From positions 1 to 39,785 of the forward strand of contig JAILAR010000091.1 in the NCBI GenBank assembly GCA_024681515.1: 39,785 nt of DNA. The letters run 5' to 3'. Positions 492-32,366 of the stretch are shown one piece after another. Position numbers and translations under genes: made by a program. Position 1 is the stretch's first letter; every line of letters starts with the position of its first letter. The notes below the pieces were generated by a model, which saw nothing but the letters and a program-made list of their open reading frames with translations, was not told where the DNA came from and ran no database searches. The stretch comes from Eubacterium sp. GTDB taxonomy: Bacteria > Bacillota > Clostridia > Lachnospirales > Lachnospiraceae.

Positions 492-2030
492 ATGGCGGAA
501 GAACATGTCCTGATCGATGATATTTTGCGGAACCAGAAGGAACGGATGCTGTACCTGAAAAAGTACTATCCGTTCTTTGTGTTGCTGGAAACCAGCCTCA
601 GCCAGTATAAGGACGGGCGGTATCAGGATCTGGACATGGGATATATCACCATGGCATTGCTCCGGTTCCTGATCCAGGAGAATCAGATGAACGGGCGGAC
701 GGTGACGTATCCGGAGGTGGAGAAGTTCCTGCGGGATGTGATCCGGAGGGATTTTGATATGGCGAAAGCACCGGACACTGCGAACGCAGGTGCATCAGCG
801 GAAACAGAACTCGCCGATCTCATCCGTTTTCTCTTCGACAAGATCCGCAACGACGGACGTCCCTTTATCTTTCATTTTTATGACCCCGAGACCCGTACGA
901 AGCAGCAGGGCTATGTCCGGCTGGTGGAGGGAACGGTGCAGGACGGTGAGGTGCGGTACAGCATCACTGCGGACGGCGTCGAATTCTATCTGTCCACCAA
1001 GGAGGTGCGGGACGAAAGCACCATCAGCACGGAGCAGCTGCTTCTGGAGAAAATGATCCGCACCGAGAATTTCCGTGGGGGGATCGATGTGGTGCGACGG
1101 ATCAACCTGGAGGTGAGCCGGCTGCGCAAGGAACGGGAGGCCGCGGTGCATTTGCTTCGGACGGATATCCGCGCAGGAGTGAAGGCCGTCGAGACCTATA
1201 TGGAAGGGATCACCAAATGGTTTGACCAGGAGAGGGAGTCCTTCCGAAAGAACAAGGCGCTGGTGGACAAGGCGGTGGCACGGTTTTCGGCCGGCAAGGA
1301 CATTTCCGCGCTGGAGATTGAATTAAAGAAGACCATCGAGAGTCACCGGCTTCTCATGGAGGAGGCCGCGTCTCTTACACAGATGGCAGATGAAATGGTA
1401 GAGCGCTCCAAGGTGCGGCAGCTCCGACCTGCATTTGATTTTGTAAATGCATTTCGGCTGATGCGGGAGCAGGACGCGCCGGAGCAAATGGGGCTGGTGC
1501 TGGCGCCGCTGCTCATGCCGAGGCGCAGGAAGTCGCTTTCGGTCTTCAGTATCGATAAGCTGGTGAGCGAGGCGAAGGAAGAGGAAGCGCTGACGGAGAA
1601 GCAGGAAAAGGCCGCACCGGATCTCGGTTTTGAGTACGAGGATGAGAAACTGAGTCGGATGATCGGTGAGAATTTCGTCCGGCTGTTCCGGGAGCTGCTG
1701 GAACGGTTGGTGCGCTGGGATACGGTGACGCTTCCGGAGTTCAATGCGATCCTGGAGATCAAGTTCGGAAAGGAGATCTACCGGAACCGGGATTATTACG
1801 CGTTCCTGGTGCATCTGGCGAAGAAGGACCGGTACCGGCTGGCGGAGAGCTTTGCGGAGCCGGAGACATTTCTGGAGTCCTATGTGAGTCGGGAGTTTTC
1901 CGAGGAGGAGAAGCAGCGGTTTAAGGGTCTGACGGTGGCGGTCGCCTTCGGAGAGGAAGAAGTGGAGCTGCGGGACGATACAGGGGAGACGCAGGGAACC
2001 GTGCGGACGATGACATTTTCCCGAGAGTGA
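492..2030 (+). CDS. jetA: Wadjet JetA-like / MksF-like kleisin subunit
   Basis: The 512-residue protein is soluble, strongly charged and largely helical, with no signal peptide or membrane segment. Its length and composition, and its place directly before a small KITE-like gene and a giant SMC-type ATPase, fit the JetA (DUF5716-type, MukF-like) kleisin that bridges the heads of JetC. Wadjet complexes recognise and extrude small circular DNA. The middle part (about residues 170-330) is heptad-rich and probably coiled coil; the last 100 residues contain acidic patches. The start ATG lies 14 nt after a weak GGAG, so initiation may be modest. A 210-nt repeat-like gap separates it from the next gene. 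The family call is from context and resemblance, not from a search. Confidence 0.65.
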   Translation: MAEEHVLIDDILRNQKERMLYLKKYYPFFVLLETSLSQYKDGRYQDLDMGYITMALLRFLIQENQMNGRTVTYPEVEKFLRDVIRRDFDMAKAPDTANAGASAETELADLIRFLFDKIRNDGRPFIFHFYDPETRTKQQGYVRLVEGTVQDGEVRYSITADGVEFYLSTKEVRDESTISTEQLLLEKMIRTENFRGGIDVVRRINLEVSRLRKEREAAVHLLRTDIRAGVKAVETYMEGITKWFDQERESFRKNKALVDKAVARFSAGKDISALEIELKKTIESHRLLMEEAASLTQMADEMVERSKVRQLRPAFDFVNAFRLMREQDAPEQMGLVLAPLLMPRRRKSLSVFSIDKLVSEAKEEEALTEKQEKAAPDLGFEYEDEKLSRMIGENFVRLFRELLERLVRWDTVTLPEFNAILEIKFGKEIYRNRDYYAFLVHLAKKDRYRLAESFAEPETFLESYVSREFSEEEKQRFKGLTVAVAFGEEEVELRDDTGETQGTVRTMTFSRE

Positions 2031-2240: not shown

Positions 2241-2978
2241 ATGGAAGAAAAAACACTATCAAAGGCGATGGACATATTCAGCATGCTGATGTCTGGGGAG
2301 GAGATCGCGAAAAACCGCCCGGGCACTTCGGAGCTGTACCAGATCTATTACGCAAATGCAGAGGTGTATGAGCTTGTGACGAAGCTCCTGGCGCGGCTGA
2401 ACATTTCCGTTTATGAGTATAATGAGACGCTGTTCGTGACGGCGGGGGAGGGCAACAAGGTCTTCGGATATACAAATGATGATCTGAAGCGGATCCTGGG
2501 ACTTCGGCGGAACCGGGAACTGTATCTGGTGTATTTTATCATCTATCAGGCGCTGCTCTTCTTCTACACGGATTCTGCGGCGTATCAGGTGAAGGAATAT
2601 GTGCGGATGGAGGAACTGCTGGAGGTGATCAGCCGTGCGGCGGAGCAGATCGTGGCAGAGAAGGACACCTTCAATCATACCGCAGAGGAGCAGGAGGGTT
2701 TTCGCTCCGTGGCTCTGCTCTGGCATGAACTGCCGCTTATGGTGAATGAAGATAAAGACAGGAACAAGGCCAGCCGCGGATCGCGGTACGGATACGTGAA
2801 GCTGACCATGAATTTCCTGCAGGGAGAGAAGCTTTTCCTGTCGGTGGACGACCGGTTCTATCCTACGGATCGGTTCCGGGCCATTGTAGAAGGATATTTT
2901 GAAGACGGAAAGGGACGGATCTACCGTCTCCTGGGAGGAACGGACGATGCCCAGTATCAATCGGATTCGGGTGAATAA
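2241..2978 (+). CDS. jetB: Wadjet JetB-like / MksE-like KITE subunit
   Basis: The 245-residue soluble protein has the size and position of the KITE partner of SMC-type Wadjet/MukBEF systems (JetB; DUF6063-like as I recall the clostridial version). It is probably made of winged-helix domains that bind the kleisin. The N-terminal 100 residues are rich in Leu, Tyr and Ile and contain the segment LYLVYFIIYQALLFFY (about 95-110), which is hydrophobic but fits a buried helix better than a membrane span. Its 3' end overlaps the next gene by 32 nt, which suggests translational coupling and fixed stoichiometry with JetC. The family assignment comes mainly from gene order. Confidence 0.6.
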   Translation: MEEKTLSKAMDIFSMLMSGEEIAKNRPGTSELYQIYYANAEVYELVTKLLARLNISVYEYNETLFVTAGEGNKVFGYTNDDLKRILGLRRNRELYLVYFIIYQALLFFYTDSAAYQVKEYVRMEELLEVISRAAEQIVAEKDTFNHTAEEQEGFRSVALLWHELPLMVNEDKDRNKASRGSRYGYVKLTMNFLQGEKLFLSVDDRFYPTDRFRAIVEGYFEDGKGRIYRLLGGTDDAQYQSDSGE

Positions 2979-5900
2979 CGTAAAATATAATTTCGGTACG
3001 CAGGCCTATGACGATTTCGCCATGCGCCTGTACGGGCAGAACACGCTCTATGACCTGGCCAACGGCGGCGGCAAGAGCGTTCTTATGCTGCTTCTCATGC
3101 AGTGCATGATCCCGAACTGTACCCTGGATGACAAGCAGCCGCTGGAGAAACTCTTCCGCGAGAACTGCGGAAATACCACCATCCATTCGCTGATCGAGTG
3201 GAAGCTGGATCCTGCGGACGTGAAGGACGGTATGCGGTTCATGACCACGGGATTCTGCGCACGGAAGGCCAGGGACCGGGGCGAGGAAGCGGAGAGCCGC
3301 GATACCGCGTCGGTGGAGTATTTCAATTACTGCATCTTTTATCAGGAATACAATAAGTACGATCTGATGAATCTGCCTCTTTCCGAAAACGGAGAGCGCA
3401 TGACCTATCAGGCACTGAAAAATTATCTGCATGACCTGTCCAGACGGGAGAACCGCATCCAGGTCTTCGTCTTTGACAGGAAGGGAGAATATCAGCGGTT
3501 CATCAGCAGATACGGGATCATCGATAGCCAGTGGGAGATCATCCGTGGGATCAACAAGACCGAGGGACACGTGCGGACGTATTTCGAAAGCAATTACCGC
3601 ACCACCCGGAAGGTGGTGGAGGATCTGCTGATCGAGGAGATCATCGAGAAGGCTTATCTGGTGAAGACAGAGCAGGAGGAGCGGCAGGAGAATTCTGCGG
3701 CTGCGCTGCTGATGAGTATTCGGGAGCAGCTCCGGCAGCTGGCGGAGAAAAAACGGGATATCGCAAATTATGATCATGAGGCGGAGCTGATCCGCCTGCT
3801 CCGGGACCGGATCGAATCCTTCTCGGGACTTTATGCAGAGAGAAATGAAGTTCTCAGTGGGATCGGAGACCTGTATCTTACACTGGACGCCGCAAGGTCC
3901 ACTCATGAGGCGGAGGGCGCGGCGCTGCAGCAGGCAGCGGAGGAAGCAGAGCGTCAGGCGGATGCCGGACGGGCAGCCGTGGAGGTGCTGAAGACCGCAA
4001 AGAAAGAAAAAGAACTGGAAGAACTCAGGGCCAGGGAAACCGGGCTGCGGGAAGAGGCGGAGCAGACGGAGCGCGAGCTGGAGGCCAGGGAGGCTAAGCT
4101 GAATCGCCGGCGTGCGGAGCTGGACTATCTGGATTATCAAAGAAGTCAGAAAAAACTGCAGAGCCTTCTGGCGGAGGCGGCGGAAGAGGTGCCGGAGGAC
4201 ATCGCACCGGTGGTGGCCGGGATCCGTGCATTTCTCTCGGAAGAGGTAAATGGTTCCAGACGTCAGGCCGAGGCGGTGGAGCGTGAGAAGGCGGAGCTGG
4301 AGCAGGAGATCGCAAAGGCGCGGAAACTCATGCAGGATGCCAGGATCGAACTGGCGGTAACGCAGCGGGAGCTGGCGGAGAAGGAAGCGGAGAGGCAGAA
4401 GGTACGGGAAGACATTTCCCGTGAGAATGCTGCGCTGGATTCCCCGTCTCTGACTCCGGTGGAAATGCGTCTTTCCGACGCGGAGAAGGAGCTGCAGGAA
4501 GCCGAGCTGAAACTGGTAACGCTGTCAAAAGAAAAAGAGAAGAAGGCAGCCTCGGAGGCGGAGGTGCTTCAGGCCCTTCGTGAGAAGGAGACGGAAGCGG
4601 CGGAGCTTACCAAACAGGCGGAGCGCTGGCGGGCGGAGGAAGAACTGCGCCGGGCCCGGGCCGTGCGCATCGCGGAGATGGAGAAGATCTATCATGCGGA
4701 GAACGCGGATCTTCGGGAGTGCATCCTGGAAAAGCTGAGCAGGGATATCAGCCGGCTGTCCGAACTGGAACGGGAGCTCATCAAAACCGAGAAGCGAATA
4801 AAGGAGATCCGGGAGGGACGGCTTCTGGAACTGTCGGAGGATGTGGCCAAGGTCATGTCCTATATTACGACGCGGCATGGCGTAACGGCTATGTTCGGTG
4901 CGGATTATCTGGCGCAGCTTGTCGCGGAGAAAAGGGAAGCTCTGCTCATCGCAAATCCGGAGCTGCCCTATGGGATCGTGGTAAGGTCCTACGGAAAGCT
5001 GGCCGAGGATGAGAATCTGAAGACTCTGGATACCGGAAGCACGGCTGTCCGGATCTATGATATCGAAGAACTGGAGACACCGACGGTGGCAGCGGAGCAT
5101 TGGTTTTCCGTGCATCAGGGACGGGCATTTTTCCTGTCCGAAGACACCGGACGGAAGCTCTCGGCGATGCTTTCGGAGACCGCGGAGAATCTGCGGACAG
5201 AGCGCAGCTATCTTACGGATGCGGTGCAGACGGAGCAGGCGGATCTGGAGTTTTTGATGCGGGAGAGCGGCTCTCTGCAGACGGCTGACCCGGAGGAAGC
5301 GCTGGAAGATCTGCAGCAGGAGATCCTCTCCCTTCGGAAGGAACTGGAGTCAGCGGGGGAGGCGATCTCTGAAAATGCAAAGCAGATTCTGGAGACGGAG
5401 GCTTTGCTTGAAAAACTGACCGCACGCACCGGAGCGCTGGAACGGCTGACCGGGCTGGAAAAGCAAAATGCGGCGTTGGAGACCTCCTGCGGAGAACTAC
5501 GGAAGACTGAGCAGCGTCTGCAGAAAGCCATCACCCAGGGCGGTGTGGAAGAGGATGAGAAGGAGCAGGTGCTTCGGGGGCTTGCAGAGTCTCTGCAGCA
5601 GCTGGAGATCGTGATCCACCGAACGGAGATGCTCTGGAAGGAACAGTACGAACCTTACTATAAGCCGGAGGTGGCGGCTCTTAGAGAAGCGGCCACTTTG
5701 GAAGAATTGGCGGCCCGCTTCCGTCTGTGGAAGCAGAAAATGTCCGGCGTAGAAGATAATGTCGAAAAGAGAAAGCTTCTGGAACAGACCCTGACGGAGA
5801 GTATGGAACGGCTTGCAGACAGCATCCGGGAACACGGACAGTCGTTGGAGAAACTTGCCGCCGCGGAGGCCGAAGGAAAGATTCTTCCGGGAGAGCGTTC

Positions 5901-7332
5901 CGGACTTGCAGGAGACGAAGCAATCCTGCAGGATACAAAAGCACTTTTGAAACAAAAAAGAGAAGCGCTGGCGGAGAGCTCTGCGGCAGTTCAGCATTTG
6001 GCGGGAAGTATCGAGTACGCCATCGAAAATATCAAGGCGGCCTATGGTTCCTACGAACCGCAGCCCATGACATCTGAAGAACTGGAACGGGCGATCCCGG
6101 AGGCGGAAGCGGCGAAGAAGGCAGCTGCTAAGCGGCTGGCAGAAGCAAGGGATGCATGGAAGGCGTTCCAGAAGCAGAGTCAGGAAAGCGAGGGGCTGTA
6201 CCGGGAGGCAGGGCGTCTGGCAGAGCGGCATCGGATCGATCTTGCAAAGGCGAAGGTCCTGGATGTTCCGGTAAAGCAGATGCAGCGGGATTTCGAGGAT
6301 CTGCTGCTCCGACTGGATCGCAGCGAGAAGAGTCTGGAACGGGCGAAGAGCCAGATGTTTCGGACCAAAGGGCAGGTGACACAGACGCTGATGGATCTGG
6401 GTGCGGCAACGCTGTCCGTCTCCGTACGGGATGATGCGGAGATCCCCGGTTCGAAGGAAGCGGCGGATTCGCTGGCAAAGCGGCTTACAGATATGGAGGA
6501 GCTGATCCGGCTGGAGCGGTCCCGCGTGGAGCAGGGCCTGTCCGATATGGAGAAGCTGAAAGAGAATTTTGTGGAGCAGTGCGTGGAGCGCTGCCTGGAT
6601 GTGCGGACGGAGCTGGACAAGCTGCAGAACCTGTCCCAGATCCGCATGCGGGCGTACCCCGGACGAAGCGCGGTGCAGGAAGAAATGGTACAGATGATCC
6701 GCCTCTCGATCCCGTATGTCAAGGATGAGTTTCTGCGGCAGCGGATGTCGGATCATATCGATCGGATCGTGGAGGAAGCGGATTCCAGGAAGACGGAGGC
6801 GGAGCAGCATAAGTTCCTGCAGTCCGAATTGGCGCTGAAAAAGCTGTTCGGTGTGATCGTAACGGATATGAACAAGATCCGGCTTCAGCTCTACAAGCGG
6901 GAGCGGATCCGGGAGCAGAGCCGGTATCTGAAATATGAGGAAGCTGTCGGAAGTACGGGGCAGTCCCAGGGTATCTACATTCAGTTCCTGATCTCGGTGA
7001 TCAATTACATTTCCGGAATGTATTCCGTGGAGGGCGGCGGGAACCGGACGAAGACGATCTTCATCGATAACCCCTTCGGTGCAGCAAAAGACATTTACAT
7101 TTGGGAGCCGATCTTTGAACTACTGAAGACAAACCATGTGCAGCTCATCGTTCCTTCCCGCGGCGCAACGCCGGAGATCACGGGACGGTTCGATGTGAAT
7201 TATGTGCTGGGCCAGCAGATGGCCGGCGGCAAGGCGCTGACGGTGGTTACGAATTACAGCAGTCGGACGTCGGAGGAGAATATCGAGTATCACGCACTGG
7301 AATACGAGCAGGCGACCTTCGATTTTATATAG
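2947..7332 (+). CDS. jetC: Wadjet JetC-like / MksB-like SMC-family ATPase
   Basis: The 1461-residue protein has the SMC layout. The N-terminal nucleotide-binding half has the P-loop NGGGKS at about 39-44. A long Glu/Ala/Arg-rich coiled coil (about 290-620) follows, then a globular hinge near 635-720, and a returning coil (about 740-1270). The C-terminal half has a signature-like GSTGQSQG near 1335 and the Walker B strand TIFIDNPFG near 1370. This is the DNA-translocating motor of Wadjet/MukB-like complexes. I chose ATG 2947, which has GGGAGG 8 nt upstream and is followed by the expected beta strand (INRIRVNNVKYN). An in-frame start at 2899 is less likely. Two motif oddities stand out: Leu replaces the first Gly of Walker A, and Asn follows the Walker B Asp where Glu is usual. 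Confidence 0.75.
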   Translation: MPSINRIRVNNVKYNFGTQAYDDFAMRLYGQNTLYDLANGGGKSVLMLLLMQCMIPNCTLDDKQPLEKLFRENCGNTTIHSLIEWKLDPADVKDGMRFMTTGFCARKARDRGEEAESRDTASVEYFNYCIFYQEYNKYDLMNLPLSENGERMTYQALKNYLHDLSRRENRIQVFVFDRKGEYQRFISRYGIIDSQWEIIRGINKTEGHVRTYFESNYRTTRKVVEDLLIEEIIEKAYLVKTEQEERQENSAAALLMSIREQLRQLAEKKRDIANYDHEAELIRLLRDRIESFSGLYAERNEVLSGIGDLYLTLDAARSTHEAEGAALQQAAEEAERQADAGRAAVEVLKTAKKEKELEELRARETGLREEAEQTERELEAREAKLNRRRAELDYLDYQRSQKKLQSLLAEAAEEVPEDIAPVVAGIRAFLSEEVNGSRRQAEAVEREKAELEQEIAKARKLMQDARIELAVTQRELAEKEAERQKVREDISRENAALDSPSLTPVEMRLSDAEKELQEAELKLVTLSKEKEKKAASEAEVLQALREKETEAAELTKQAERWRAEEELRRARAVRIAEMEKIYHAENADLRECILEKLSRDISRLSELERELIKTEKRIKEIREGRLLELSEDVAKVMSYITTRHGVTAMFGADYLAQLVAEKREALLIANPELPYGIVVRSYGKLAEDENLKTLDTGSTAVRIYDIEELETPTVAAEHWFSVHQGRAFFLSEDTGRKLSAMLSETAENLRTERSYLTDAVQTEQADLEFLMRESGSLQTADPEEALEDLQQEILSLRKELESAGEAISENAKQILETEALLEKLTARTGALERLTGLEKQNAALETSCGELRKTEQRLQKAITQGGVEEDEKEQVLRGLAESLQQLEIVIHRTEMLWKEQYEPYYKPEVAALREAATLEELAARFRLWKQKMSGVEDNVEKRKLLEQTLTESMERLADSIREHGQSLEKLAAAEAEGKILPGERSGLAGDEAILQDTKALLKQKREALAESSAAVQHLAGSIEYAIENIKAAYGSYEPQPMTSEELERAIPEAEAAKKAAAKRLAEARDAWKAFQKQSQESEGLYREAGRLAERHRIDLAKAKVLDVPVKQMQRDFEDLLLRLDRSEKSLERAKSQMFRTKGQVTQTLMDLGAATLSVSVRDDAEIPGSKEAADSLAKRLTDMEELIRLERSRVEQGLSDMEKLKENFVEQCVERCLDVRTELDKLQNLSQIRMRAYPGRSAVQEEMVQMIRLSIPYVKDEFLRQRMSDHIDRIVEEADSRKTEAEQHKFLQSELALKKLFGVIVTDMNKIRLQLYKRERIREQSRYLKYEEAVGSTGQSQGIYIQFLISVINYISGMYSVEGGGNRTKTIFIDNPFGAAKDIYIWEPIFELLKTNHVQLIVPSRGATPEITGRFDVNYVLGQQMAGGKALTVVTNYSSRTSEENIEYHALEYEQATFDFI

Positions 7333-7443
7333 GAACCGAAATGCCATCAGGCATTTCGGTTCCGTACGCACCCACCAACGCCGAAGGTGTTGGTGTCCGA
7401 GCGAAGCGAGGATTTGTGACCGCCATCCGAAGGCGGTCACAAA
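7332..7443. repeat. Tandem hairpin cluster after the jetC-like gene
   Basis: Three hairpins follow the stop codon in a row. The first has perfect 14-bp arms at 7332-7345 and 7350-7363 with loop ATCA. The second is a shorter CACCAAC/GTTGGTG stem (about 7371-7395). The third has perfect 12-bp arms at 7413-7424 and 7432-7443 with a 7-nt loop. None has a T-tract, so they are not classical terminators in either direction. They may act as mRNA 3' stabilisers, or be a member of a local intergenic repeat family. Confidence 0.7.
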
Positions 7444-7492
7444 GGTAGTATGAAGGCGGGCGCAAAGGCTATACTATGGGGGAGGATGCAGT

Positions 7493-8368
7493 ATGCATAT
7501 CGTCGAGGTAAAAACCATACTGACACCACAGAACGGGATGAACATCTACCGTGGGGTGACGGATCACTGCATTGTGTCACCGGTGCGGGCGAAGACCGCG
7601 AGGGTAGAGAATCCGGAGGATGTGGAGGTGAAGCAGGATGCGGCGCGGGTGCTGGAGCATTCGCTGCGACGGAAGAGAACACGGGGTATGATCTCCGTGG
7701 GCGGGCTGTCCGATCCCTACAATCCGCTGGAGGAGAAGTTCGGGATCATGCGGGACTGCCTGCGGGTGCTGGACCGCTGTGACTTTGGGGTGTGCATCAC
7801 GACACGGTACAGTCTGCTGCTCCGGGATCTGGATATTTTGAAGGAGCTTGCGCGGAAGACGAAGGTGGTGATCTGTATCCCATTTCCTACGGTGCAGACC
7901 GAACAGTTCCGCCTGATTGAGGGAGAACTTGGGATGTCGGATCGTCTGCGTCTCATTGATGAACTCTCGAAGGAGAAGATCGAGACGGTGCTTTTGCTGG
8001 ATCCCATCATTCCGAAGATCAACGATACCAAGACGTCCCTTGGAATGCTCCTTCAGTTGGCAGGGGATTATCATATCCGTATGGTGGACCACCGCGATAT
8101 GAAATGCCAGCTGCAGAATGGAAGCCGGGAGTATTTTTATAAAGAACTGCTTATGAGGGACAGGGATCTTGCGCTGAAACTGAGGGAGATCTACGGGGAG
8201 GAAAATGAGCTTGTCCCTGAAAATCAGAAGGACCTGCTGGCATATTTATTTGACAGTTGCAAGGCAAATGATGTAATATGCGACAGAAAAGAGATACTTA
8301 CCTATTGTAGAAAGTATGAAAACAAGACGGAAGGTGAGCAGCTTTCGATAGATAGTTTTATTGGATAG
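7493..8368 (+). CDS. Radical SAM (SPL-like) homologue lacking the Fe-S cysteine motif
   Basis: The 291-residue protein aligns by eye with clostridial radical SAM proteins of the spore photoproduct lyase type. It has the opening (MHIVEVKTILTPQNGMNIYRG), then SVGGLSDPYNPLE, LLRDLDILKEL, PIIPKINDT and REYFYKEL. In those relatives the segment after YRG reads CTHGCIYC, the CX3CX2C site for the [4Fe-4S] cluster. Here it reads VTDHCIVS, so only the middle cysteine remains and the cluster should not form. The rest of the frame is intact, so the protein is probably kept for a non-radical role such as binding nucleic acid or a partner. GGGGGAGG lies just before the ATG. It follows the Wadjet-like genes after the hairpin cluster and may be part of the same island. 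Confidence 0.8.
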   Translation: MHIVEVKTILTPQNGMNIYRGVTDHCIVSPVRAKTARVENPEDVEVKQDAARVLEHSLRRKRTRGMISVGGLSDPYNPLEEKFGIMRDCLRVLDRCDFGVCITTRYSLLLRDLDILKELARKTKVVICIPFPTVQTEQFRLIEGELGMSDRLRLIDELSKEKIETVLLLDPIIPKINDTKTSLGMLLQLAGDYHIRMVDHRDMKCQLQNGSREYFYKELLMRDRDLALKLREIYGEENELVPENQKDLLAYLFDSCKANDVICDRKEILTYCRKYENKTEGEQLSIDSFIG

Positions 8369-8454: not shown

Positions 8455-9624
8455 ATGGATTATAACAAATTAAGTCTGGAAATGCATGAACAGAATCAGG
8501 GCAAGCTGGAGGTCGTATCCAAGGTGCGGGTGGAGACCCGGGACGACCTGTCCACAGCCTATACACCGGGCGTTGCGGAGCCCTGCCGGAAGATCCATGA
8601 GAATCCGGAGGATGCGTATAAATATACCTGCAAGGCCAACACGGTAGCCGTTGTGTCGGACGGTACCGCGGTGCTGGGTCTGGGAGATATCGGCCCGCTG
8701 GCTGCGATTCCGGTCATGGAAGGCAAGTCCATCTTATTTAAGCGTTTCGGAAATGTGGATGCGTTCCCGATCTGCCTGGACACCAAGGATCCGGATGAGA
8801 TCGTGGAGACGGTAAAGCGGATCGCACCGTCCTTCGGCGGTATCAATCTGGAAGACATTTCCGCACCCCGTTGTTTCGAGGTGGAGCGCCGTCTGAAGGA
8901 AGAACTGGATATCCCGGTATTCCACGATGACCAGCATGGAACGGCCGTGGTCGTTTGCGCAGGTCTGATCAATGCCTTCAAGCTGACCGGACGGAAATGG
9001 GAGGACTGCAGTGCAGTCATCAGCGGTGCGGGCGCCGCAGGCATCTCCATTTGCAAGCTGATGCAGCGCTTCGGTATCGGAAATGTAGTGCTGGTTTGCT
9101 CCAAGGGTGCTCTTTGCCCGGGTGAGCCGTTCATGAATCCGGCTCAGGCTGAGATGGCAGAGATCACCAATAAGAATAAGGAACGCGGAAGTCTGGCGGA
9201 CGTGATGAAGGGCAAGGACATCTTCATCGGCGTATCCGCTCCGAATATCGTAACCGCGGAAATGATCAGCACCATGGCAGAGAACCCGCTGGTATTCGCC
9301 ATGGCAAATCCGATCCCGGAGATCATGCCGGACGAAGCAAAGAAGGGCGGCGCCCGGATTATTGCTACCGGACGTTCTGATTTCCCGAACCAGATCAATA
9401 ACGTGCTGGTATTCCCGGGAATCTTCCGCGGAGCTCTGGATGCACGCGCAACGTCCATCACAGAGTCCATGAAGGAAGCAGCTGCACGTGCCATCGCGGC
9501 AGTGATTCCAGAGGAGGAGATCACACCGGAGTATATCATTCCGGATGCCTTTAATGATCAGGTGGCTAAGGTGGTTGCCAAGGCCGTAGCGGATGAAGCG
9601 GTACGCGCGGGCGTGACACGGTAG
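8455..9624 (+). CDS. NAD(P)-dependent malic enzyme
   Basis: The 389-residue cytoplasmic enzyme oxidatively decarboxylates malate to pyruvate. Visible motifs are AYTPGVAEP (catalytic Tyr region), VSDGTAVLGLGDIGP, the metal-binding VFHDDQHGTAVV and the dinucleotide-binding GAGAAGIS near 190. The MANPIPEI and ATGRSDFPNQINNVLVFPG segments near the C-terminus are typical of the short bacterial form without the phosphotransacetylase domain. The start ATG follows GGAAAGGA. It is a few genes upstream of citrate synthase, so the stretch has a carbon-metabolism flavour. Cofactor preference (NAD or NADP) cannot be read from the sequence. Confidence 0.93.
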   Translation: MDYNKLSLEMHEQNQGKLEVVSKVRVETRDDLSTAYTPGVAEPCRKIHENPEDAYKYTCKANTVAVVSDGTAVLGLGDIGPLAAIPVMEGKSILFKRFGNVDAFPICLDTKDPDEIVETVKRIAPSFGGINLEDISAPRCFEVERRLKEELDIPVFHDDQHGTAVVVCAGLINAFKLTGRKWEDCSAVISGAGAAGISICKLMQRFGIGNVVLVCSKGALCPGEPFMNPAQAEMAEITNKNKERGSLADVMKGKDIFIGVSAPNIVTAEMISTMAENPLVFAMANPIPEIMPDEAKKGGARIIATGRSDFPNQINNVLVFPGIFRGALDARATSITESMKEAAARAIAAVIPEEEITPEYIIPDAFNDQVAKVVAKAVADEAVRAGVTR

Positions 9625-20991: not shown

Positions 20992-21678
20992 ATGAAAAAG
21001 GCGATTCTCGCTGAGAAGATCGGTATGACTCAGGTCTTCAACGATGACGGTGTTCTGACACCGGTTACGGTTCTGAAGGCAGGACCGTGTGAAGTATTAC
21101 AGGTTAAGACGGTAGAAAATGATGGTTACGAAGCCGTTCAGGTCGGATTCAAGGACGTGAAGGAAAAAGTAACCGGCAAGGACGGATCAGGAAAGAAAGT
21201 GATCAGAAATCCGCATGGTGCAACGAAGGCAGAGGCTGGCCACGCTAAGAAGTGGGCAAAGACAACTCCGAAGCAGTTCGTTAAGGAGTTCCGTTTTGAG
21301 AACGCTGCTGAGTATGTTGCAGGAGAGAGCGTTATCAAGGTTGACATCTTCGCAGAGGGCGACAAGATCGATGTAACCGCTCGTTCCAAAGGTAAGGGAT
21401 ATGCCGGCGGCATCAAGCGCCACGGCCTGAAGTCCGGTCCTTCCGGACACGGTTCCAAGTATCACCGCCATGCAGGTTCCAACGGTTCCGCAACTACACC
21501 GGGCCGCGTTATGAAGGGCAAGAAGATGGCCGGACACGCAGGCTGCGAGCAGGTGACCGTACAGAACCTGGAGATCGTTAAGATAGATGCAGAGAATGAT
21601 GTGATCCTTGTGAAGGGCGCGGTTCCGGGCCCGAAGAAGTCACTCGTGATCGTTGCAGAGTCTGTAAAGGCCAGATAA
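20992..21678 (+). CDS. rplC: 50S ribosomal protein L3
   Basis: The 228-residue L3 is one of the first proteins to bind 23S rRNA and reaches the peptidyl transferase centre. It opens with [12 protein letters not shown], and its core loop contains [14 protein letters not shown] and [14 protein letters not shown]. The length is slightly above the usual 205-215 residues because of a Lys/Gly-rich insertion near 65-85. AGGAGG precedes the ATG. Confidence 0.98.
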
Positions 21679-21701
21679 TCACGATTAAGGAGGATTCGAA
21701 A

Positions 21702-22322
21702 ATGGCAACATTAGCAGTATACAACACCGACGGCAAAGAGGTTGATAAGATCGACCTGTCCGATAACATTTTCGGTGTGGAAATAAATGAGACACTGGTT
21801 CACAAGGCAGTTGTTACCTACCTTGCAAACAATCGTCAGGGTACACAGAGTGCACTGACCCGTGCAGAAGTATCCGGCGGCGGAAAGAAGCCCTGGAGAC
21901 AGAAGGGTACAGGTCATGCACGTCAGGGTTCGACCCGTTCCCCGCAGTGGACCGGCGGTGGCGTGGTATTCGCACCGAAGCCGAGAGACTATTCCAAGAA
22001 GATGAACAAGCGTGAGCGTCAGATCGCTCTGTTCTCTGCACTGACCTCCAAGGTTCAGGATGAGAAGATGATCGTAGTTGACGAGCTCAGCATGGATGTA
22101 CCGAAGACGGCTGCATTTGCAGAGATTTTGAAGAACCTGAAAGCAGAGAGTGCACTGGTAGTTACAAAGGATAAGAACGACAATGTGGTTCTGTCCGCAC
22201 GGAACATCCCGGACGTTGCAACCACCATCAGCACATCCATCAATGTGTATGATATCCTGAAGTATGATTCTCTGATCATCACGAAGGATGCTGCACAGGC
22301 GATCGAGGAGGTGTACGCATAA
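21702..22322 (+). CDS. rplD: 50S ribosomal protein L4
   Basis: The 206-residue L4 has the extended loop with VSGGGKKPWRQKGTGHARQG (about 60-80) that lines the peptide exit tunnel, and the C-terminal globular fold. In some bacteria L4 represses its own operon, which makes it a candidate ligand for the S10 leader here, though that mechanism is known mainly from gammaproteobacteria. Its stop codon shares one base with the L23 start. Confidence 0.98.
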   Translation: MATLAVYNTDGKEVDKIDLSDNIFGVEINETLVHKAVVTYLANNRQGTQSALTRAEVSGGGKKPWRQKGTGHARQGSTRSPQWTGGGVVFAPKPRDYSKKMNKRERQIALFSALTSKVQDEKMIVVDELSMDVPKTAAFAEILKNLKAESALVVTKDKNDNVVLSARNIPDVATTISTSINVYDILKYDSLIITKDAAQAIEEVYA

Positions 22323-22621
22323 TGGCAGATTTAAAGTACTATGATGTGATCAAGAGACCGGTTCTTACTGAGAAGAGTATGAACGCTATGAGCGAGAAGA
22401 AATATGCATTCCTCGTTCATCCGGATGCGACAAAGAATCAGATCGCTGACGCAGTAGAGAAGATGTTCGAAGGAACAAAGGTGGCAAAGGTCAACACCGT
22501 AAACTACGATGGCAAGACCAAGCGCCGTGGCAACACCTTCGGCAAGACCGCGAAGACTAAGAAGGCATATGTTCAGCTGACCGCTGAGAGTGCTGACATC
22601 GAGCTTTTCGAGGGTCTGTAA
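22322..22621 (+). CDS. rplW: 50S ribosomal protein L23
   Basis: The 99-residue L23 sits at the tunnel exit, where it contacts trigger factor and SRP. VIKRPVLTEKSM near the N-terminus and NVVNYDGK-type sequence (KVNTVNYDGKTKRRG) are typical. TAATG overlap with L4 means coupled translation. Confidence 0.98.
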   Translation: MADLKYYDVIKRPVLTEKSMNAMSEKKYAFLVHPDATKNQIADAVEKMFEGTKVAKVNTVNYDGKTKRRGNTFGKTAKTKKAYVQLTAESADIELFEGL

Positions 22622-22659
22622 AATCATCAGATGACTAGATAGTCGAAAGGAGAATTAAA

Positions 22660-23502
22660 ATGGGTATCAAAACATACACCCCATATACACCTTCCAGAAG
22701 AAATATGACGGGTCTGGACTTTGATGTGATCACCACCGATCAGCCGGAGAAGTCGCTTCTGGTTTCCAAGAAGAAGACGGCAGGCCGCAACAACCAGGGC
22801 AAGATCACTGTTCGCCATCATGGTGGCGGAAACCGTCAGAAATACAGAATCATCGATTTCAAGAGAAATAAAGATGATATCCCGGCAAAGGTTCTTACCA
22901 TCGAGTACGATCCGAACCGGACAGCAAATATCGCACTGATCTGCTATGCAGACGGTACAAAGACTTATATCCTTGCACCCGCAGGTCTCAAGGTTGGAGA
23001 TTCCCTGATGAACGGTGAGAACGCTGATGTACGTGTAGGCAACTGCCTGCCGCTGACAGCGATCCCGGTCGGTACAGAGATCCACAACATCGAGCTTGTA
23101 CCGGGTAAGGGCGGTCAGCTGGTTCGTTCCGCAGGTAATGCAGCACAGCTGATGGCAAAAGAAGGAAAGTATGCGATCCTTCGTCTTCCTTCCGGCGAGA
23201 TGCGTATGGTACCGATCATTTGCCGCGCAACGGTAGGTACCGTAGGAAACATCGAGCATGGACTTGTGAACATCGGTAAGGCAGGCCGGAAGCGCCATAT
23301 GGGCATCCGTCCGACAGTCCGCGGTTCTGTTATGAACCCGAATGACCATCCGCATGGTGGTGGTGAGGGTCGTGCGCCGATCGGCCGCAGCGGTCCGTCT
23401 ACTCCGTGGGGTAAGCCGGCTCTGGGTCTGAAGACCAGAAAGAAGAACGCAAAGTCCAGTAAGCTGATCATCAGAACCAGATCAGGAAAGAACGTTAAGT
23501 AA
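22660..23502 (+). CDS. rplB: 50S ribosomal protein L2
   Basis: The 280-residue L2 is a core 23S rRNA-binding protein required for subunit association and peptidyl transfer. The C-terminal [14 protein letters not shown] holds the conserved His implicated in activity; [16 protein letters not shown] lies near the N-terminus. GAAAGGAG precedes the ATG. Confidence 0.98.
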
Positions 23503-23513
23503 GGAGGAAGAAC

Positions 23514-23789
23514 ATGGCTCGTTCATTAAAAAAAGGACCGTTTGCAGATGCAAGCTTATTAAAGAAGGTTGATGAGCTGAACAAGAAGGACGCTCATGAG
23601 GTCATTCGTACATGGTCTCGCCGTTCTACGATTTTCCCCTCATTTGTAGGACACACAATTGCGGTTTATGACGGAAGAAAGCATGTTCCGGTATATGTAA
23701 CCGAGGATATGGTCGGCCATAAGCTGGGTGAGTTCGTAGCAACCAGAACCTACCGTGGACACGGCAAGGACGAGAAGAAGAAGAAATAA
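23514..23789 (+). CDS. rpsS: 30S ribosomal protein S19
   Basis: The 91-residue S19 of the 30S head binds 16S rRNA with S13. [12 protein letters not shown] and [17 protein letters not shown] are signature segments; the basic KDEKKKK tail is normal. AAGGAGGAAGAAC lies just ahead of the ATG. Confidence 0.98.
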
Positions 23790-23803
23790 GGAGGAACCGA
23801 AAG

Positions 23804-24190
23804 ATGGCAAAGGGACATAGATCTCAGGTCAAGAGACAGAGAAATGAGAACAAAGATACAAGACCGTCCGCTAAGGTTTCCTACGCACGTGTTTCCGTAA
23901 CGAAGGCTTGCTTCGTTTTGGATGCGATCCGTGGAAAGGACGTAGATACCGCACTTGGTATTCTTGCATATAATAACCGTTATGCTTCCGCAGTGATCTA
24001 TAAGCTGCTCCAGTCCGCTGTTGCAAACGCTGAGAACAACAACGGCCTGAAGAGAGAAAAGCTCTATGTTGCAGAGTGCTTCGCTAACAAGGGACCGACC
24101 ATGAAGCGGATCCACCCGAGAGCACAGGGCAGAGCTTACAGGATCGAGAAGAGAACCAGCCACATCACCGTAGTGCTGGACGAGAGATAG
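23804..24190 (+). CDS. rplV: 50S ribosomal protein L22
   Basis: The 128-residue L22 contacts all domains of 23S rRNA, and its hairpin lines the exit tunnel (macrolide resistance region). The C-terminal [24 protein letters not shown] carries this loop. The N-terminus has about 15 extra basic residues compared with 110-residue homologues. Confidence 0.98.
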
Positions 24191-24200
24191 GAGGGAAAGC

Positions 24201-24878
24201 ATGGGACAGAAAGTTAATCCGCACGGTTTAAGAGTCGGTATCATCAAGGACTGGGAGTCCAAGTGGTATGCAGATGCAAAGAATGAGGAGTTTTCAAACA
24301 ATCTTGTAGAGGACTACAACATCCGTAAGTTCCTGAAGAGAAATAAGGACCTTAAGGACGCAAGCATCTCCAAGATCGATATTGAGAGAACCCGCGACCG
24401 CATTAAGGTTGGCATTTACACTGCTAAGCCGGCAGTTACCATCGGCAAGGGCGGTGCTGAAGTAGAGAAGATCAAGGCTGCACTTCAGAAGCTGGTTGCC
24501 AAGGGACGTAAGGTAGATATCAAGGTATACGAGATCAAGCGTCCGGATCTGGATGCACAGCTGGTAGCTGAAAATATTGCCCGTCAGCTGGAGAATCGTA
24601 TCGGTTTCCGTCGTGCTATGAAGTCCTGCATGCAGCGGACCATGAAGTCCGGTGCACTTGGCATCAAGACCTCCGTATCCGGTCGTCTGGGTGGTGCAGA
24701 TATGGCTCGTAAGGAGACCTACAGCGAGGGTACCATTCCGCTTCAGACTCTGCGTGCAGATATTGACTACGGATTTGCAGAGGCAGATACCACATATGGT
24801 AAGGTTGGCGTAAAGACATGGATCTACCATGGTGAAGTACTTCCTGCCAAGGGAAAAAAGGAAGGGAGCGATAGATAA
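24201..24878 (+). CDS. rpsC: 30S ribosomal protein S3
   Basis: The 225-residue S3 forms part of the mRNA entry channel. It has [14 protein letters not shown] at the N-terminus, a KH domain with the GKGG loop (about 81-84), and the C-terminal [15 protein letters not shown]-type fold. GGAGGG precedes the ATG. Confidence 0.98.
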
Positions 24879-24880
24879 TT

Positions 24881-25318
24881 ATGTTAATGCCGAAGAGAGT
24901 AAAACATCGTAAGCAGTTCAGAGGATCCATGGCCGGTAAGGCCCTTCGCGGCAACACCATCACCGATGGTGAATTCGGTATCGTTGCCACAGAGCCGGCA
25001 TGGGTAAAATCCAATCAGATCGAGGCAGCCCGTGTTGCGATCAACCGTTACCTTCGCCGTGAAGGTAAGGTATGGATCAAGATCTTCCCGGACAAGCCTG
25101 TAACCGCAAAGCCGGCTGAAACCCGAATGGGTTCCGGAAAGGGCTCCCTGGAGTACTGGGTAGCAGTTGTTAAGCCGGGCCGCGTAATGTTCGAGGTAGG
25201 AAATGTATCAGAGGAGAAGGCACGTGAGGCTCTCCGTCTTGCTACACACAAGCTTCCTTTGAAGTGTAAGATCGTTTCAAAGGCTGACCTGGAAGGAGGT
25301 AGCGCAAGTGAAAACTAA
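24881..25318 (+). CDS. rplP: 50S ribosomal protein L16
   Basis: The 145-residue L16 helps shape the A-site of the 50S subunit. [15 protein letters not shown] and the [20 protein letters not shown]-like core are characteristic. Its last codons overlap the GTG start of L29 by 11 nt. Confidence 0.98.
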
Positions 25319-25511
25319 GGATTATGTTAAGGACCTTAAGACAAAGTCCATCGAGGAACTGACAGGCGATCTGGAGGCTGCAAAGAAGGAACTCTTCAAT
25401 CTGAAGTTCCAGAACGCTACAAATCAGCTGGAGAACACAGGACGCATTACCATGGTTCGTAAGAACATCGCCCGGATCCAGACCGTGATCACCGAGAAGA
25501 AGAATGCGTAA
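25308..25511 (+). CDS. rpmC: 50S ribosomal protein L29
   Basis: The 67-residue L29 is a small helical-hairpin protein near the tunnel exit that helps dock trigger factor and [16 protein letters not shown] and [17 protein letters not shown] are typical. It starts with GTG, 11 nt before the end of L16, after GGAAGGAGGTAG inside the L16 gene. Confidence 0.97.
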
Positions 25512-25535
25512 GGAGACCGAAAGGAGAGATAAATC

Positions 25536-25790
25536 ATGGAGAGAAATCTTAGAAAAACACGTGTAGGTCTCGTGACCAGCGATAAGATGGACAAGACGAT
25601 CGTCGTATCCATCGTGGATAACGTAAAGCACCCGCTGTACAAGAAGATCGTAAAGCGTACTTACAAGCTGAAAGCGCATGACGAGGAGAATTCTGCAAAG
25701 CGTGGTGACCGCGTAAAGGTTATGGAGACAAGACCTCTGTCCAAGGACAAGAGATGGAGACTCGTCGAGATCATCGAGAGAGCGAAATAA
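25536..25790 (+). CDS. rpsQ: 30S ribosomal protein S17
   Basis: The 84-residue S17 is an OB-fold protein that binds 16S rRNA early in assembly. [21 protein letters not shown] and [16 protein letters not shown] are characteristic. GAAAGGAGAG precedes the ATG. Confidence 0.98.
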
Positions 25791-25809
25791 TTAAGGAGGC
25801 AAAAGAACT

Positions 25810-26178
25810 ATGGTACAGCAGGAAACAAGACTTCGTGTTGCTGATAACACCGGCGCAAAAGAGCTTCTTTGCATCCGCGTTCTCGGCGGCTCAGTCAGAA
25901 GATATGCAAATATCGGCGACATCATCGTGGCTTCTGTTAAAGACGCAACACCCGGCGGTGTTGTTAAGAAAGGTGATGTTGTCAAGGCAGTGGTTGTTCG
26001 TACAAAGAAGGGCGCACGCCGTAAGGACGGATCCTATATCCGCTTCGATGAGAATGCCGCAGTCATCATCAAGGATGATCTGAATCCGCGTGGAACCCGT
26101 ATTTTTGGACCGGTAGCAAGAGAGTTGAGAGATAAGAAGTTTATGAAGATCATCTCCCTCGCACCGGAAGTACTGTAA
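25810..26178 (+). CDS. rplN: 50S ribosomal protein L14
   Basis: The 122-residue L14 lies on the subunit interface and is a docking site for Rsf[21 protein letters not shown] and [13 protein letters not shown] are near-invariant. It has the standard length. Confidence 0.98.
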
Positions 26179-26191
26179 GGAGGTAGCTACC

Positions 26192-26509
26192 GTGGCAGCA
26201 TCGAAAATCAAGAAAGATGACATGGTACGTGTCATCGCCGGTAAGGATAAAGGCAAAGAAGGCAAGGTAATCTCCGTTGATCCGAAGAACCACAAGGTTC
26301 TTGTAGAAGGCATCAACAAGGTCTACAAGCACAGTAAGCCGAGCGCAGCTAACCAGCAGGGTGGCATCATTGAGAAGGAAGCACCGCTTGACATTTCCAA
26401 TGTCATGTATCTCTACAAGGGTCAGACCGTAAGAGTCGGCTTCCAGGGCGCAAAGAAAGACAAAGTCCGGGTTGCACATGTAAATGGCAAGACCGAGACC
26501 ATTGATTAA
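26192..26509 (+). CDS. rplX: 50S ribosomal protein L24
   Basis: The 105-residue L24 is a KOW-motif protein ([16 protein letters not shown]) that initiates 50S assembly. It starts with GTG after AAGGAGGTAG. The [19 protein letters not shown] segment is the usual central loop. Confidence 0.97.
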
Positions 26510-26532
26510 TCCGGGGAAGGAGGCTTACAGCA

Positions 26533-27072
26533 TTGAGTAGATTAAGAGATACATATGAAAGTGATATTAAAGTAGCTATGATCAAGAAGTTCGGATACAA
26601 GAACGTAATGCAGGTTCCGAAGCTCGAGAAGATCGTCCTGAACATGGGCGTCGGCGATGCACGCGAGAATGCAAAGGTTCTTGAGTCCGCAGTCAAAGAC
26701 ATGACTGAGATCTCCGGACAGAAGCCGGTTATCACAAAGGCTAAGAAGTCCGTAGCAAACTTCAAACTCCGTGAAGGCATGTCCATCGGATGTAAGGTAA
26801 CACTTCGTGGCGAGCGCATGTATGAGTTCGCTGATCGTCTGATCAACCTGGCTCTGCCGCGCGTTCGTGACTTCCGCGGCGTCAGCGCAGATTCTTTCGA
26901 CGGAAGAGGAAACTATGCTCTGGGTATCAAGGAGCAGATCATCTTCCCGGAGATCGAGTACGATAAGGTTGACAAGGTTCGTGGTATGGATGTTATCTTC
27001 GTAACCACAGCTCGTACCGATGAGGAAGCGAGAGAGTTACTGAGACTGTTCGGTATGCCGTTTAGAAAGTAA
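26533..27072 (+). CDS. rplE: 50S ribosomal protein L5
   Basis: The 179-residue L5 binds 5S rRNA and contacts the P-site tRNA. Typical segments are [27 protein letters not shown] and [10 protein letters not shown]. It begins with a rare TTG codon, placed by the GGAAGGAGG site 10-12 nt upstream and the expected N-terminus SRLRDTYE. Confidence 0.97.
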
Positions 27073-27083
27073 GGAGGAATATC

Positions 27084-27269
27084 ATGGCAAAGACTGCAAT
27101 GAAGATTAAGCAGCAGAGAAAGCAGAAGTTCTCCACCAGAGAGTATACACGTTGCAAGATCTGCGGCCGTCCGCATGCGTACCTCAGAAAATACGGAATC
27201 TGCAGAATCTGCTTCCGTGAGTTGGCGTACAAGGGCGAGATCCCGGGCGTGAAGAAATCCAGCTGGTAG
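27084..27269 (+). CDS. rpsZ: 30S ribosomal protein S14, zinc-binding type
   Basis: The 61-residue short S14 has two CXXC pairs (CKIC near 24-27 and CRIC near 40-43) that bind zinc. This is the C+ form usual in Firmicutes. It assembles late into the 30S head. AAGGAGGAATATC precedes the ATG. Confidence 0.98.
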
Positions 27270-27289
27270 AATGAAAGGAGGACAAAAAA

Positions 27290-27691
27290 GTGGCAATTAG
27301 TGATCCGATCGCGGATATGCTTACAAGAATCCGCAATGCAAATACAGCAAAGCATGACACCGTAGATATCCCTTCTTCCAAGATGAAGAAGGCTATCGCT
27401 GACATCCTTCTTTCCGAGGGATATGTAAAGTCCGTTGAGATCGTAAACGACGGCAAGTTTGATGTGATCCGCATCACACTGAAGTATGGAAAGGATAAGA
27501 ACGACAAGGTCCTCTCCGGACTTCGCCGGATCTCCAAGCCGGGTCTTCGGATCTACGCCGACACAGAGAACCTTCCCAAGGTACTCGGCGGCTTCGGAAC
27601 AGCCATCATTTCCACCAACAAGGGTGTGATCACCGATAAGGAAGCACGTAAGCTGAATGTCGGCGGTGAAGTACTGGCGTTCATCTGGTAA
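27290..27691 (+). CDS. rpsH: 30S ribosomal protein S8
   Basis: The 133-residue S8 binds the central domain of 16S rRNA and, in E. coli, represses the spc operon. [13 protein letters not shown] and the C-terminal GGEVLAFIW are typical. The start codon is GTG, after AAAGGAGG. Confidence 0.98.
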
Positions 27692-27739
27692 GCATCTGGT
27701 AAGATATCGATCTATAGAATTAAATGGAGGTAAAGGCAA

Positions 27740-28279
27740 ATGTCACGTATCGGAAAAATGCCTATCGCTATTCCTGCAGGCGTAACTGTAGATATAGCAG
27801 AAAATAATAAGGTGACGGTAAAGGGACCGAAGGGCGAGCTGTCCAGACAGCTGGCACCGGAGATGGAGCTTAAGATCGAGAACGACGAGCTGACTGTCAG
27901 CCGTCCGAACGATCTGAAGAGAAATAAGTCTCTGCACGGTCTCACAAGAACACTTATTCACAACATGGTTGTCGGTGTTACCGAGGGATACAAGAAGACC
28001 CTGGAAGTCAACGGTGTTGGTTACAGAGCAGCAAAGCAGGGCAAGAAGCTCACTCTGAATCTGGGTTATTCCCATCCGGTAGAGATGGAAGATCCGGAAG
28101 GTCTTACAACCGAAGTACAGGACAACAAGATCATCGTCAGCGGTATCGACAAGGAGAAGGTTGGCCAGTATGCAGCAGAGATCCGCGAGAAGCGTGCTCC
28201 GGAACCGTACAAGGGCAAGGGTATCAAGTATGATTACGAGGTAATCCGCCGCAAGGTTGGTAAGACCGGTAAGAAATAA
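27740..28279 (+). CDS. rplF: 50S ribosomal protein L6
   Basis: The 179-residue L6 consists of two similar domains and lies near the factor-binding site. [34 protein letters not shown] and the C-terminal [11 protein letters not shown] segment are conserved. A 48-nt gap separates it from S8. Confidence 0.98.
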
Positions 28280-28294
28280 AGGAGTGTGAATAAG

Positions 28295-28663
28295 ATGATA
28301 AATAAAGAATCCAGAAGTGAAGTTCGTGCAAAGAAGCATCTGAAGATTCGCAACCGGTTCAGCGGCACGGCTGAGCGTCCGAGACTTGCTGTTTTCAGAA
28401 GCAACAATCATATGTACGCTCAGGTAATCGATGACTCCGAAGGAAAGACCCTTGTTGCAGCCTCCACACTGGAGAAGGCTGTAAAGTCAGAACTGGAGAA
28501 GACAAATGACGTAGATGCAGCAGCTTATGTCGGCAAGGTGATCGCAGAGCGTGCGATCGCAGCAGGCATCAAGGAAGTAGTATTCGACCGTGGCGGTTTC
28601 ATCTATCAGGGTAAGATCAAGGCTTTGGCAGACGCTGCAAGAGAAGCCGGTCTCGAATTCTAA
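28295..28663 (+). CDS. rplR: 50S ribosomal protein L18
   Basis: The 122-residue L18 binds 5S rRNA with L5. [20 protein letters not shown] and [28 protein letters not shown] are typical. I start at ATG 28295 (AAAGGAG about 10 nt upstream); the GTG at 28286 would sit on that ribosome site. Confidence 0.97.
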
Positions 28664-28681
28664 TAAGGAGGAACGAACGCA

Positions 28682-29185
28682 ATGAAGAAGATCGACGCAA
28701 GTCAGTTAGAATTAGTCGACAGCGTAGTACAGATCCGCCGTGTCACCAAGGTAGTTAAGGGTGGTCGTAACATGCGTCTGGCAGCGCTTGTCGTAGTCGG
28801 AGACCGCAACGGACACGTAGGTGTCGGCGTTGGTAAGGCAGCCGAGATTCCGGAAGCGATCCGGAAGGCAAAGGAAGATGCGATCAAGAACCTGGTTGAG
28901 GTTCCGATCAATGAGGCAGGAAGTATCCCCTACGGATACACCGGTGAGTTCGGAAGTGCTACCGTACTTCTGAAGTCTGCTCCGGAAGGTACCGGTATCA
29001 TCGCAGGTGGTCCGGCTCGTTCCGTACTGGATCTTGCAGGTTACCGCAACATCCGTACCAAGTCTCTGGGCTCCAACAACAAGAGAAATGTCGTTCTTGC
29101 CACACTGAACGGTCTGAAGGCAATCCAGGATCCGAGCGAGATCGCAAAGCGCCGCGGTAAGTCCGTAGAAGAGATTCTTGGCTAG
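28682..29185 (+). CDS. rpsE: 30S ribosomal protein S5
   Basis: The 167-residue S5 contributes to decoding fidelity and mRNA helicase activity at the entry site. [21 protein letters not shown] and [17 protein letters not shown] are conserved, as is [11 protein letters not shown] in the second domain. AAGGAGG precedes the ATG. Confidence 0.98.
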
Positions 29186-29198
29186 GAGGGTTTGAAAG

Positions 29199-29381
29199 AT
29201 GGCAGATATGTTGAAAGTAACGCTGGTAAAGTCACCGATCGGTGCACTTCCGAAGCATAGAAGAACCGTGGAAGCTCTTGGCCTGACCAAGCTTCACAAG
29301 ACGGTAGAACTCCCGAACAATGCTGCAACCAAGGGCATGATCAGCCAGGTTGGTTACATGCTGAAGGTTGAGGAAGCGTAA
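29199..29381 (+). CDS. rpmD: 50S ribosomal protein L30
   Basis: The 60-residue L30 has the expected VTLVKSPIGALPKHRRTVEALGL pattern. AGGAGGG precedes the ATG. It is followed by a 96-nt gap with a strong hairpin (29425-29446). Confidence 0.97.
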   Translation: MADMLKVTLVKSPIGALPKHRRTVEALGLTKLHKTVELPNNAATKGMISQVGYMLKVEEA

Positions 29382-29424
29382 GCAAAGCAGATTCGATTAA
29401 GATCGATTATAGCGATTCGAACGC

Positions 29425-29446
29425 GATCGCAGCAGCAGCTGCGATC
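29425..29446 (+). other. Hairpin in the rpmD-rplO gap
   Basis: GATCGCAGC-AGCA-GCTGCGATC is a perfect 9-bp stem with a 4-nt loop. The flanks contain more GATCGC copies that allow alternative pairings. The gap ends in AGAAGGAGG for L15. There is no T-tract. Confidence 0.6.
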
Positions 29447-29477
29447 CGGATCGCGATCATTAGAAGGAGGATACATC

Positions 29478-31235: not shown

Positions 31236-31272
31236 TAGAATTTGGGTATGATCAGATTCAGATTTGAATAAT

Positions 31273-31335
31273 GATTCTTCGCTCCGTCTTGTGTGTCAGA
31301 GCCTTTGGCCGGCACCCTGACCGGGGCGAAGGATT
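31273..31335. repeat. REP-like inverted repeat upstream of adk
   Basis: The arms 31273-31286 (GATTCTTCGCTCCG) and 31322-31335 pair apart from G-T wobbles and enclose GTCAG/CTGAC with an inner GCC-TTT-GGC. The CTTCGC/GCGAAGGAT motif links it to the palindrome at 8372-8402. Confidence 0.55.
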
Positions 31336-31380
31336 TTGTGGTTTCAAGAGATTATTGAAAAACAGAAGGGAGTAGCAGCT

Positions 31381-32353: not shown

Positions 32354-32366
32354 ACGCGAACTACAA

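Follow-up and report, generated by a model that had tools for sequence, protein, structure and literature searches.

The stretch of DNA analysed here, referred to as the window, comprises 39,785 nucleotides at the start of an Eubacterium sp. contig (JAILAR010000091.1), and the genes described below all lie on its forward strand. Homologues of JetA, JetB and JetC of Wadjet type III stand first and were all assigned by PADLOC: a JetA3-like kleisin subunit (492..2030; PDLC00560, E = 1.4e-174), a JetB3-like KITE subunit (2241..2978; PDLC00571, E = 2.5e-91; Pfam DUF6063, PF19539, E = 3.1e-47) and a JetC3-like SMC ATPase (2944..7332; PDLC00581, 1530 bits). An intergenic stretch with two inverted repeats follows (7333..7492; repeats at 7333-7362 and 7413-7443), which is longer than the median jetC-to-start spacing of 20 bp across 57 loci. 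It leads to the gene under study (7493..8368), encoding a 291-aa protein similar to spore photoproduct lyase (SPL) that we classify as a pseudo-radical-SAM protein from ORF, profile and fold evidence. A malic enzyme gene lies next (8455..9624; profile matches and locus comparison). Malic enzyme is the downstream neighbour in most genus loci that we read, jetABC-free loci included, and therefore marks the ancestral locus. Genes for ribosomal proteins L3 and L2, SecY and RpoA occupy a region further downstream (20992-35643), and the window's genome also encodes a canonical SMC (1,094 bits); together, the ribosomal-protein genes and the separate SMC indicate that the locus belongs to the core chromosome.

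The ORF begins with ATG and has no internal stop, and a plausible ribosome site, GGGGAGGATGCAGT-ATG, precedes it, in agreement with the first-pass annotation, which had reported an intact frame of 291 codons with a ribosome site. That annotation had also quoted four pieces of an SPL-like scaffold, all of which are present in the protein, and had proposed that a radical SAM enzyme here had lost its iron-sulfur cysteines. The CX3CX2C motif is normally expected right after a conserved GMNxYRG. In the window protein, GMNIYRG is followed by V22-T-D-H-C26-I-V-S29 (codons 22-29, 7556..7579; sequence and column comparison), so that one cysteine of three is left, as the annotation had read it. Compensating frameshifts at the motif were considered, but ten close relatives (61-87% identity) carry the altered reading in frame, and the idea was abandoned. 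The 3′ end of the gene encodes a C-terminal signature, RxYxNKxxGxQ (R273, Y275, N277, G281, Q283), and a tail of low model confidence (8309..8365; sequence and model).

Profile searches, which had been recommended for confirming the family, place the protein with the NCBIfam PA0069/Rv2578c-type radical SAM proteins, although below both family cut-offs: the match to NF033668 (PA0069 family) has E = 4.9e-27 and 94.8 bits against a cut-off of 360, and that to NF038135 (Rv2578c-type) has E = 1.1e-22. It thus resembles these families in sequence and differs from them in its sub-threshold scores and missing cluster cysteines. The Pfam Radical_SAM profile (PF04055, cut-off 29.5 bits) did not match the window protein at E = 0.001. 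The intact paralogue in the window's genome scores 57.5 bits with this profile, while two other Cys-less proteins (L037 and L052) reach 20.8 bits, under the cut-off; among intact jet-linked members, L112 (50 bits) and L145 (45.8 bits) pass and L110 (22.9 bits) falls below. A sequence search of PDB chains with the window protein returned nothing at E = 0.01. The AlphaFold2 model, built from a 57-row alignment, is of high confidence (pLDDT 93.9, pTM 0.90) except for the final eleven residues, whose low confidence fits a flexible tail. In a Foldseek search of the PDB with this model, SPL fills ranks 1 to 6, headed by 4fhc (E = 4.9e-7, TM 0.63, 12% identity), and matches to SPL, PFL-AE, viperin and others indicate a partial TIM-barrel fold. 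SPL (PDB 4fhc, 4rh0), a DNA-repair enzyme that uses SAM to repair spore photoproduct, is therefore the closest structural likeness in overall fold, from which the window protein differs in its low identity, its lack of CX3CX2C and its putative non-catalytic nature. CX3CX2C, the motif by which radical SAM proteins bind a [4Fe-4S] cluster, is present in none of the 54 Cys-less rows of the tree described below.

The altered form is widespread in the genus. A search with the window protein (P0001) against 61 genus genomes (Eubacterium ruminantium group) found matches in 59, and reading the motif in each identified a Cys-less orthologue in 56 of the 61. The five genomes without it are G011, G050, G051, G032 and G060; a jetC piece reaches the contig end in G032 and G060, and G051 has only weak partial matches. 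All 56 frames are open, with one match (G020) passing a stop near its end. Carriers are rumen and gut Lachnospiraceae around E. ruminantium, including the cultured strains AC2029, AC2031, NE2001, LC2019 and ATCC 17233. The residual cysteine varies by clade: the window's clade and the GGPN clade keep the second, the E. ruminantium clade keeps the third, and most RTENSILLTE-type members keep none. In many Cys-less members the cluster loop is also shortened by deletion. Two genus copies outside the tree, matched by contig coordinates (G009 = L164 and G019 = L175), are motif-less too.

An intact, unlinked SPL-like copy accompanies the Cys-less form in 30 of the 61 genus genomes (fragmentary in two), and the Cys-less form occurs alone in 26, among them 10 of the 31 best assemblies. 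Of those 31 assemblies, all contain the Cys-less gene, 27 have JetC3 and 21 have the intact paralogue (two of them as fragments). CX3CX2C is intact in all 30 unlinked genus rows, all 19 unlinked family rows and all eight jet-linked rows from outside the 61 genus genomes. Forty further family matches were fetched, and the motif is intact in each of the 38 in which its region could be read. One SPL-like gene of another genus (L204, G132:C1:464925-465803) has the degenerate motif GGVCSILSC, and no jet genes were seen across the 10.9 kb read there; this is an independent loss. The same genome, G132, holds a second SPL-like match, split into two pieces.

The Cys-less gene is under purifying selection. 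Nei-Gojobori dN/dS had a median of 0.07 in 18 usable of 20 locus pairs (one pair had an undefined dS and one exceeded the saturation filter), compared with 0.05 for JetA, 0.04 for JetB, 0.07 for JetC and 0.03 for malic enzyme. Several dS values are above 1 and unreliable; pairs with dS below 1 gave 0.06-0.15 for the SPL-like gene, and pairs within the window's own clade gave 0.11-0.15. Selection on the gene is thus not relaxed, and the earlier denial that it is a decaying pseudogene is borne out by this constraint together with the presence of the altered form in 56 of 61 genus genomes.

In eight loci from outside the 61 genus genomes, jetB3 and jetC3 are followed after 10-26 bp by an SPL-like gene with an intact CX3CX2C (L110 (= L185), L111, L112, L142, L144, L145, L146 and L147). 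jetA3 is also present, partly so in the shorter loci, and malic enzyme lies further on. L110, L111 and L112 belong to other genera (G100, G189 and G239), with one SPL-like match per genome. Small genes of 86-91 aa are found just 5′ of malic enzyme in L110, L111, L112, L142 and L145. The first-pass annotation had named intact homologues at this locus in close relatives, with relaxed selection, as evidence against its reading; intact copies at the locus were found only outside the 61 genus genomes, and the Cys-less gene remains constrained.

In an unrooted tree of 113 rows made by a quick method, a single branch with an SH-aLRT of 86 (not starred) separates the 54 Cys-less rows from the others, consistent with the expectation that Cys-less homologues cluster in one clade. 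Jet-linked intact rows sit between the Cys-less rows and the unlinked rows, and a starred branch (98) separates the latter from the rest. The tree has several long end branches, and the positions of L110 and L111 carry an uncertainty flag. Rows L084 and L085 represent the intact unlinked genes of G060 and G032, where the Cys-less gene was not found. As the root was not inferred, the direction of change is argued from the intact motif in every other group. Given that the eight jet-linked homologues outside the 61 genus genomes keep all three cysteines, an intact operon enzyme seems to have been kept after losing its cluster.

The jet-linked forms also share a subfamily signature. In a column comparison that left out rows L174 and L204, Q13, R273, Y275, N277 and G281 were present in all 62 jet-linked-type rows, intact and Cys-less alike, and in few of the 49 unlinked rows (R273 14%, Y275 8%, N277 0, G281 12%, Q13 at most 16%), while Q283 stood at 100% in all three groups compared. 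On a plain reading of these sequences, an active-type enzyme bearing a subfamily-specific tail would have entered the operon, and one genus would later have lost the cluster. A signature common to intact and Cys-less jet-linked forms suggests a binding role that may have outlived catalysis.

The proposal that the protein stands beside an anti-plasmid SMC operon is right as to the neighbours, because JetA3, JetB3 and JetC3 adjoin it; the anti-plasmid part is not confirmed, as these genes were found without a jetD. JetD_C matches occur in 11 of the 61 genus genomes, and by coordinates none is at the jetC3 locus; they lie on other contigs, or 1.4 Mb from jetC3 (G006). The JetD3 model gave weak matches in 10 of the 61, nine of them at the JetD_C loci. 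The possibility that a distant JetD serves the window-type operon was examined and rejected: the JetD_C matches are elsewhere in the genome, and profile scans of three JetD proteins (G000, G006 and G038) show all of them to be type I. The window's own genome has a separate set of type I Wadjet genes (L101, C33:16000-35000), in which JetC1 stands beside JetD1, and in G038 (L100, C11) a type I jetD lies directly upstream of an intact unlinked SPL-like copy. The window contig starts 491 bp before jetA, and many relatives' loci extend about 2.5 kb upstream. As a positive control from the same bacterial family, G170 has JetD3 directly upstream of jetA3. A window-type JetC (over 200 bits) is present in 38 family genomes; in the 37 tested for JetD_C (all but G152), it was found in 13 of 35 from other genera and in one of the remaining two, and never on the contig of that JetC, although a linked JetD might be missed in drafts such as G175, where the jetC piece ends at the contig edge.

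The operon thus has JetA3, JetB3 and JetC3 homologues in the same order as Wadjet type III (JetABCD3) but differs in that JetD was not found with it, unlike G170, where JetD3 precedes jetA. Without a linked JetD, an anti-plasmid function of the operon is not confirmed. A review describes MksBEF as likely having arisen by JetD loss and as contributing to chromosome organisation in Pseudomonas aeruginosa, and states that most work so far has concerned type I (PMC10586767). MksBEF, the JetD-less SMC complex found for example in P. aeruginosa, shares with the window operon a JetABC-like set minus the nuclease; the window operon differs in fitting the PADLOC type III models and in having an SPL-like fourth gene in this lineage. 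The operon resembles an MksBEF-like condensin more closely than a proven anti-plasmid system. Among 15 further loci from other genera (L114-L128), 10 have a TPR-like-looking gene of about 700-1250 aa first or second after jetC3, judged from ORF starts (L116, L118, L120-L123 and L125-L128), whose product is a candidate partner.

How closely the SPL-like protein is bound to Jet is a separate question. An association with jetABC lacking a linked jetD was predicted and found: in 51 of the 56 genus genomes that carry the Cys-less gene, it immediately follows jetC3. From this it might be argued that the protein is a dedicated fourth subunit or regulator of JetABC3, in place of the fourth Jet gene, a reading also favoured by the short median spacing, by the intact forms at the same place in the eight other loci and by the failure to find jetD in the locus. 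Conversely, five genomes (G003, G017, G035, G036 and G059) keep the gene without any JetC3 match, so the protein is not simply a Jet subunit. No SPL-like match lies beside the window-type JetC in 33 of the 38 family genomes, and G130 has jetABC3 and malic enzyme but no SPL-like gene. Rate correlations across 33 loci, controlled for two other neighbour genes, gave a partial r of 0.41 between the SPL-like gene and JetC and 0.40 between it and an unrelated nearby Bmp-like gene, compared with 0.76 for JetA-JetC; this mirror-tree test thus returned no Jet-specific signal, and it is not sharp, given a correlation of 0.62 between the Bmp-like gene itself and JetC. We regard the dedicated subunit as possible, on the unlikely side. 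The same observations (no JetD, genomes with the gene and no JetC3 match, JetC genomes with no SPL-like match beside it, and a rate correlation with Jet no higher than with an unrelated gene, in a weak test) leave unsupported the annotation's suggestion of an accessory Wadjet protein, to which the dedicated subunit corresponds.

Other explanations depart further from a binding role. The protein could still be an enzyme, using SAM or another cofactor in a new non-radical reaction or holding a cluster through other residues. D74, P75, Y76, T104, R111, D112, D114 and R151 are invariant in the 57-protein alignment (A2), which leaves room for residual non-radical activity, and the low dN/dS is compatible with it; the deletions in the cluster loop of many members and the clade-dependent or missing residual cysteine make a retained enzymatic function improbable. 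A dominant-negative partner or regulator of the intact unlinked copy would need that copy in the same genome, and the two do coexist in 30 of 61 genomes, counting two with a fragmentary intact copy; with the Cys-less form alone in 26, including 10 of the 31 best assemblies, we consider this very improbable. Gene decay or assembly error has the altered motif itself in its favour and nothing else. Decay is refuted by the low dN/dS and the breadth across 56 genomes with open frames, and the several distinct residual motifs by clade likewise count against either, leaving this explanation a negligible chance.

The reading that we prefer, to which we give about an even chance, is a conserved pseudoenzyme that would act by binding, as a catalysis-free adaptor for DNA or the sliding clamp. 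The sliding-clamp consensus is given as QL[S/D]LF, and the PolC C-terminus as QLSLF, in PMC12309361. A strict version of this motif (Q[LM][SDTN][LI]F) lies within the final 20 residues in 42 of the 49 unlinked rows, in 5 of the 8 jet-linked intact rows and in 22 of the 54 Cys-less rows. Of 5,040 control 20-mers taken from the bodies of these proteins, 1 has it; a looser version occurs in 43 of 54 Cys-less rows versus 29 of 5,040 controls. Two unlinked genus rows have no clamp-like tail in the last 16 residues, and are probably the longer proteins L100 and L213. In the window protein the tail is degenerate (QLSIDSF), and the strict motif is found in none of the 11 rows of its clade. Clamp docking is therefore a lead for the family that may not apply to the window protein, for which it is doubtful. 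DNA binding gains no support from the net charge, which is slightly negative (median -4.2; window protein -3.5).

Under this pseudoenzyme reading, an SPL-like radical-SAM gene whose cluster motif was still intact would once have stood directly behind jetABC, and the jet-linked copy would have lost its cluster cysteines in the E. ruminantium genus. Purifying selection would then have kept the fold, several pocket-side residues and the subfamily-specific C-terminal signature. With the radical-SAM chemistry gone, the protein would work as a binder: most likely it would be an adaptor that docks on DNA or the sliding clamp and is co-expressed with an MksBEF-like JetABC complex lacking JetD, in a job that could persist without that complex. 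A more specific proposal, that the Cys-less protein couples the JetD-less MksBEF-like JetABC3 to the replication clamp or to damaged DNA, is tentative and rather unlikely. If it were true, a repair enzyme would have been drawn into an SMC operon and stripped of its chemistry, which would be a new kind of SMC partner.

In the titles and abstract openings searched, which covered few subscription papers, we found no conserved radical-SAM pseudoenzyme of this kind; for SPL with the sliding clamp, literature with the same sparse subscription coverage yielded one general review. Intact operon relatives, altered descendants and an unlinked active-type paralogue all occur within one bacterial family, and the altered form is present in cultured strains such as E. 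ruminantium ATCC 17233, which makes the change from enzyme to binder directly testable. The finding also brings into view a broad group of JetD-less JetABC3 operons, which may have a chromosome or a plasmid role.
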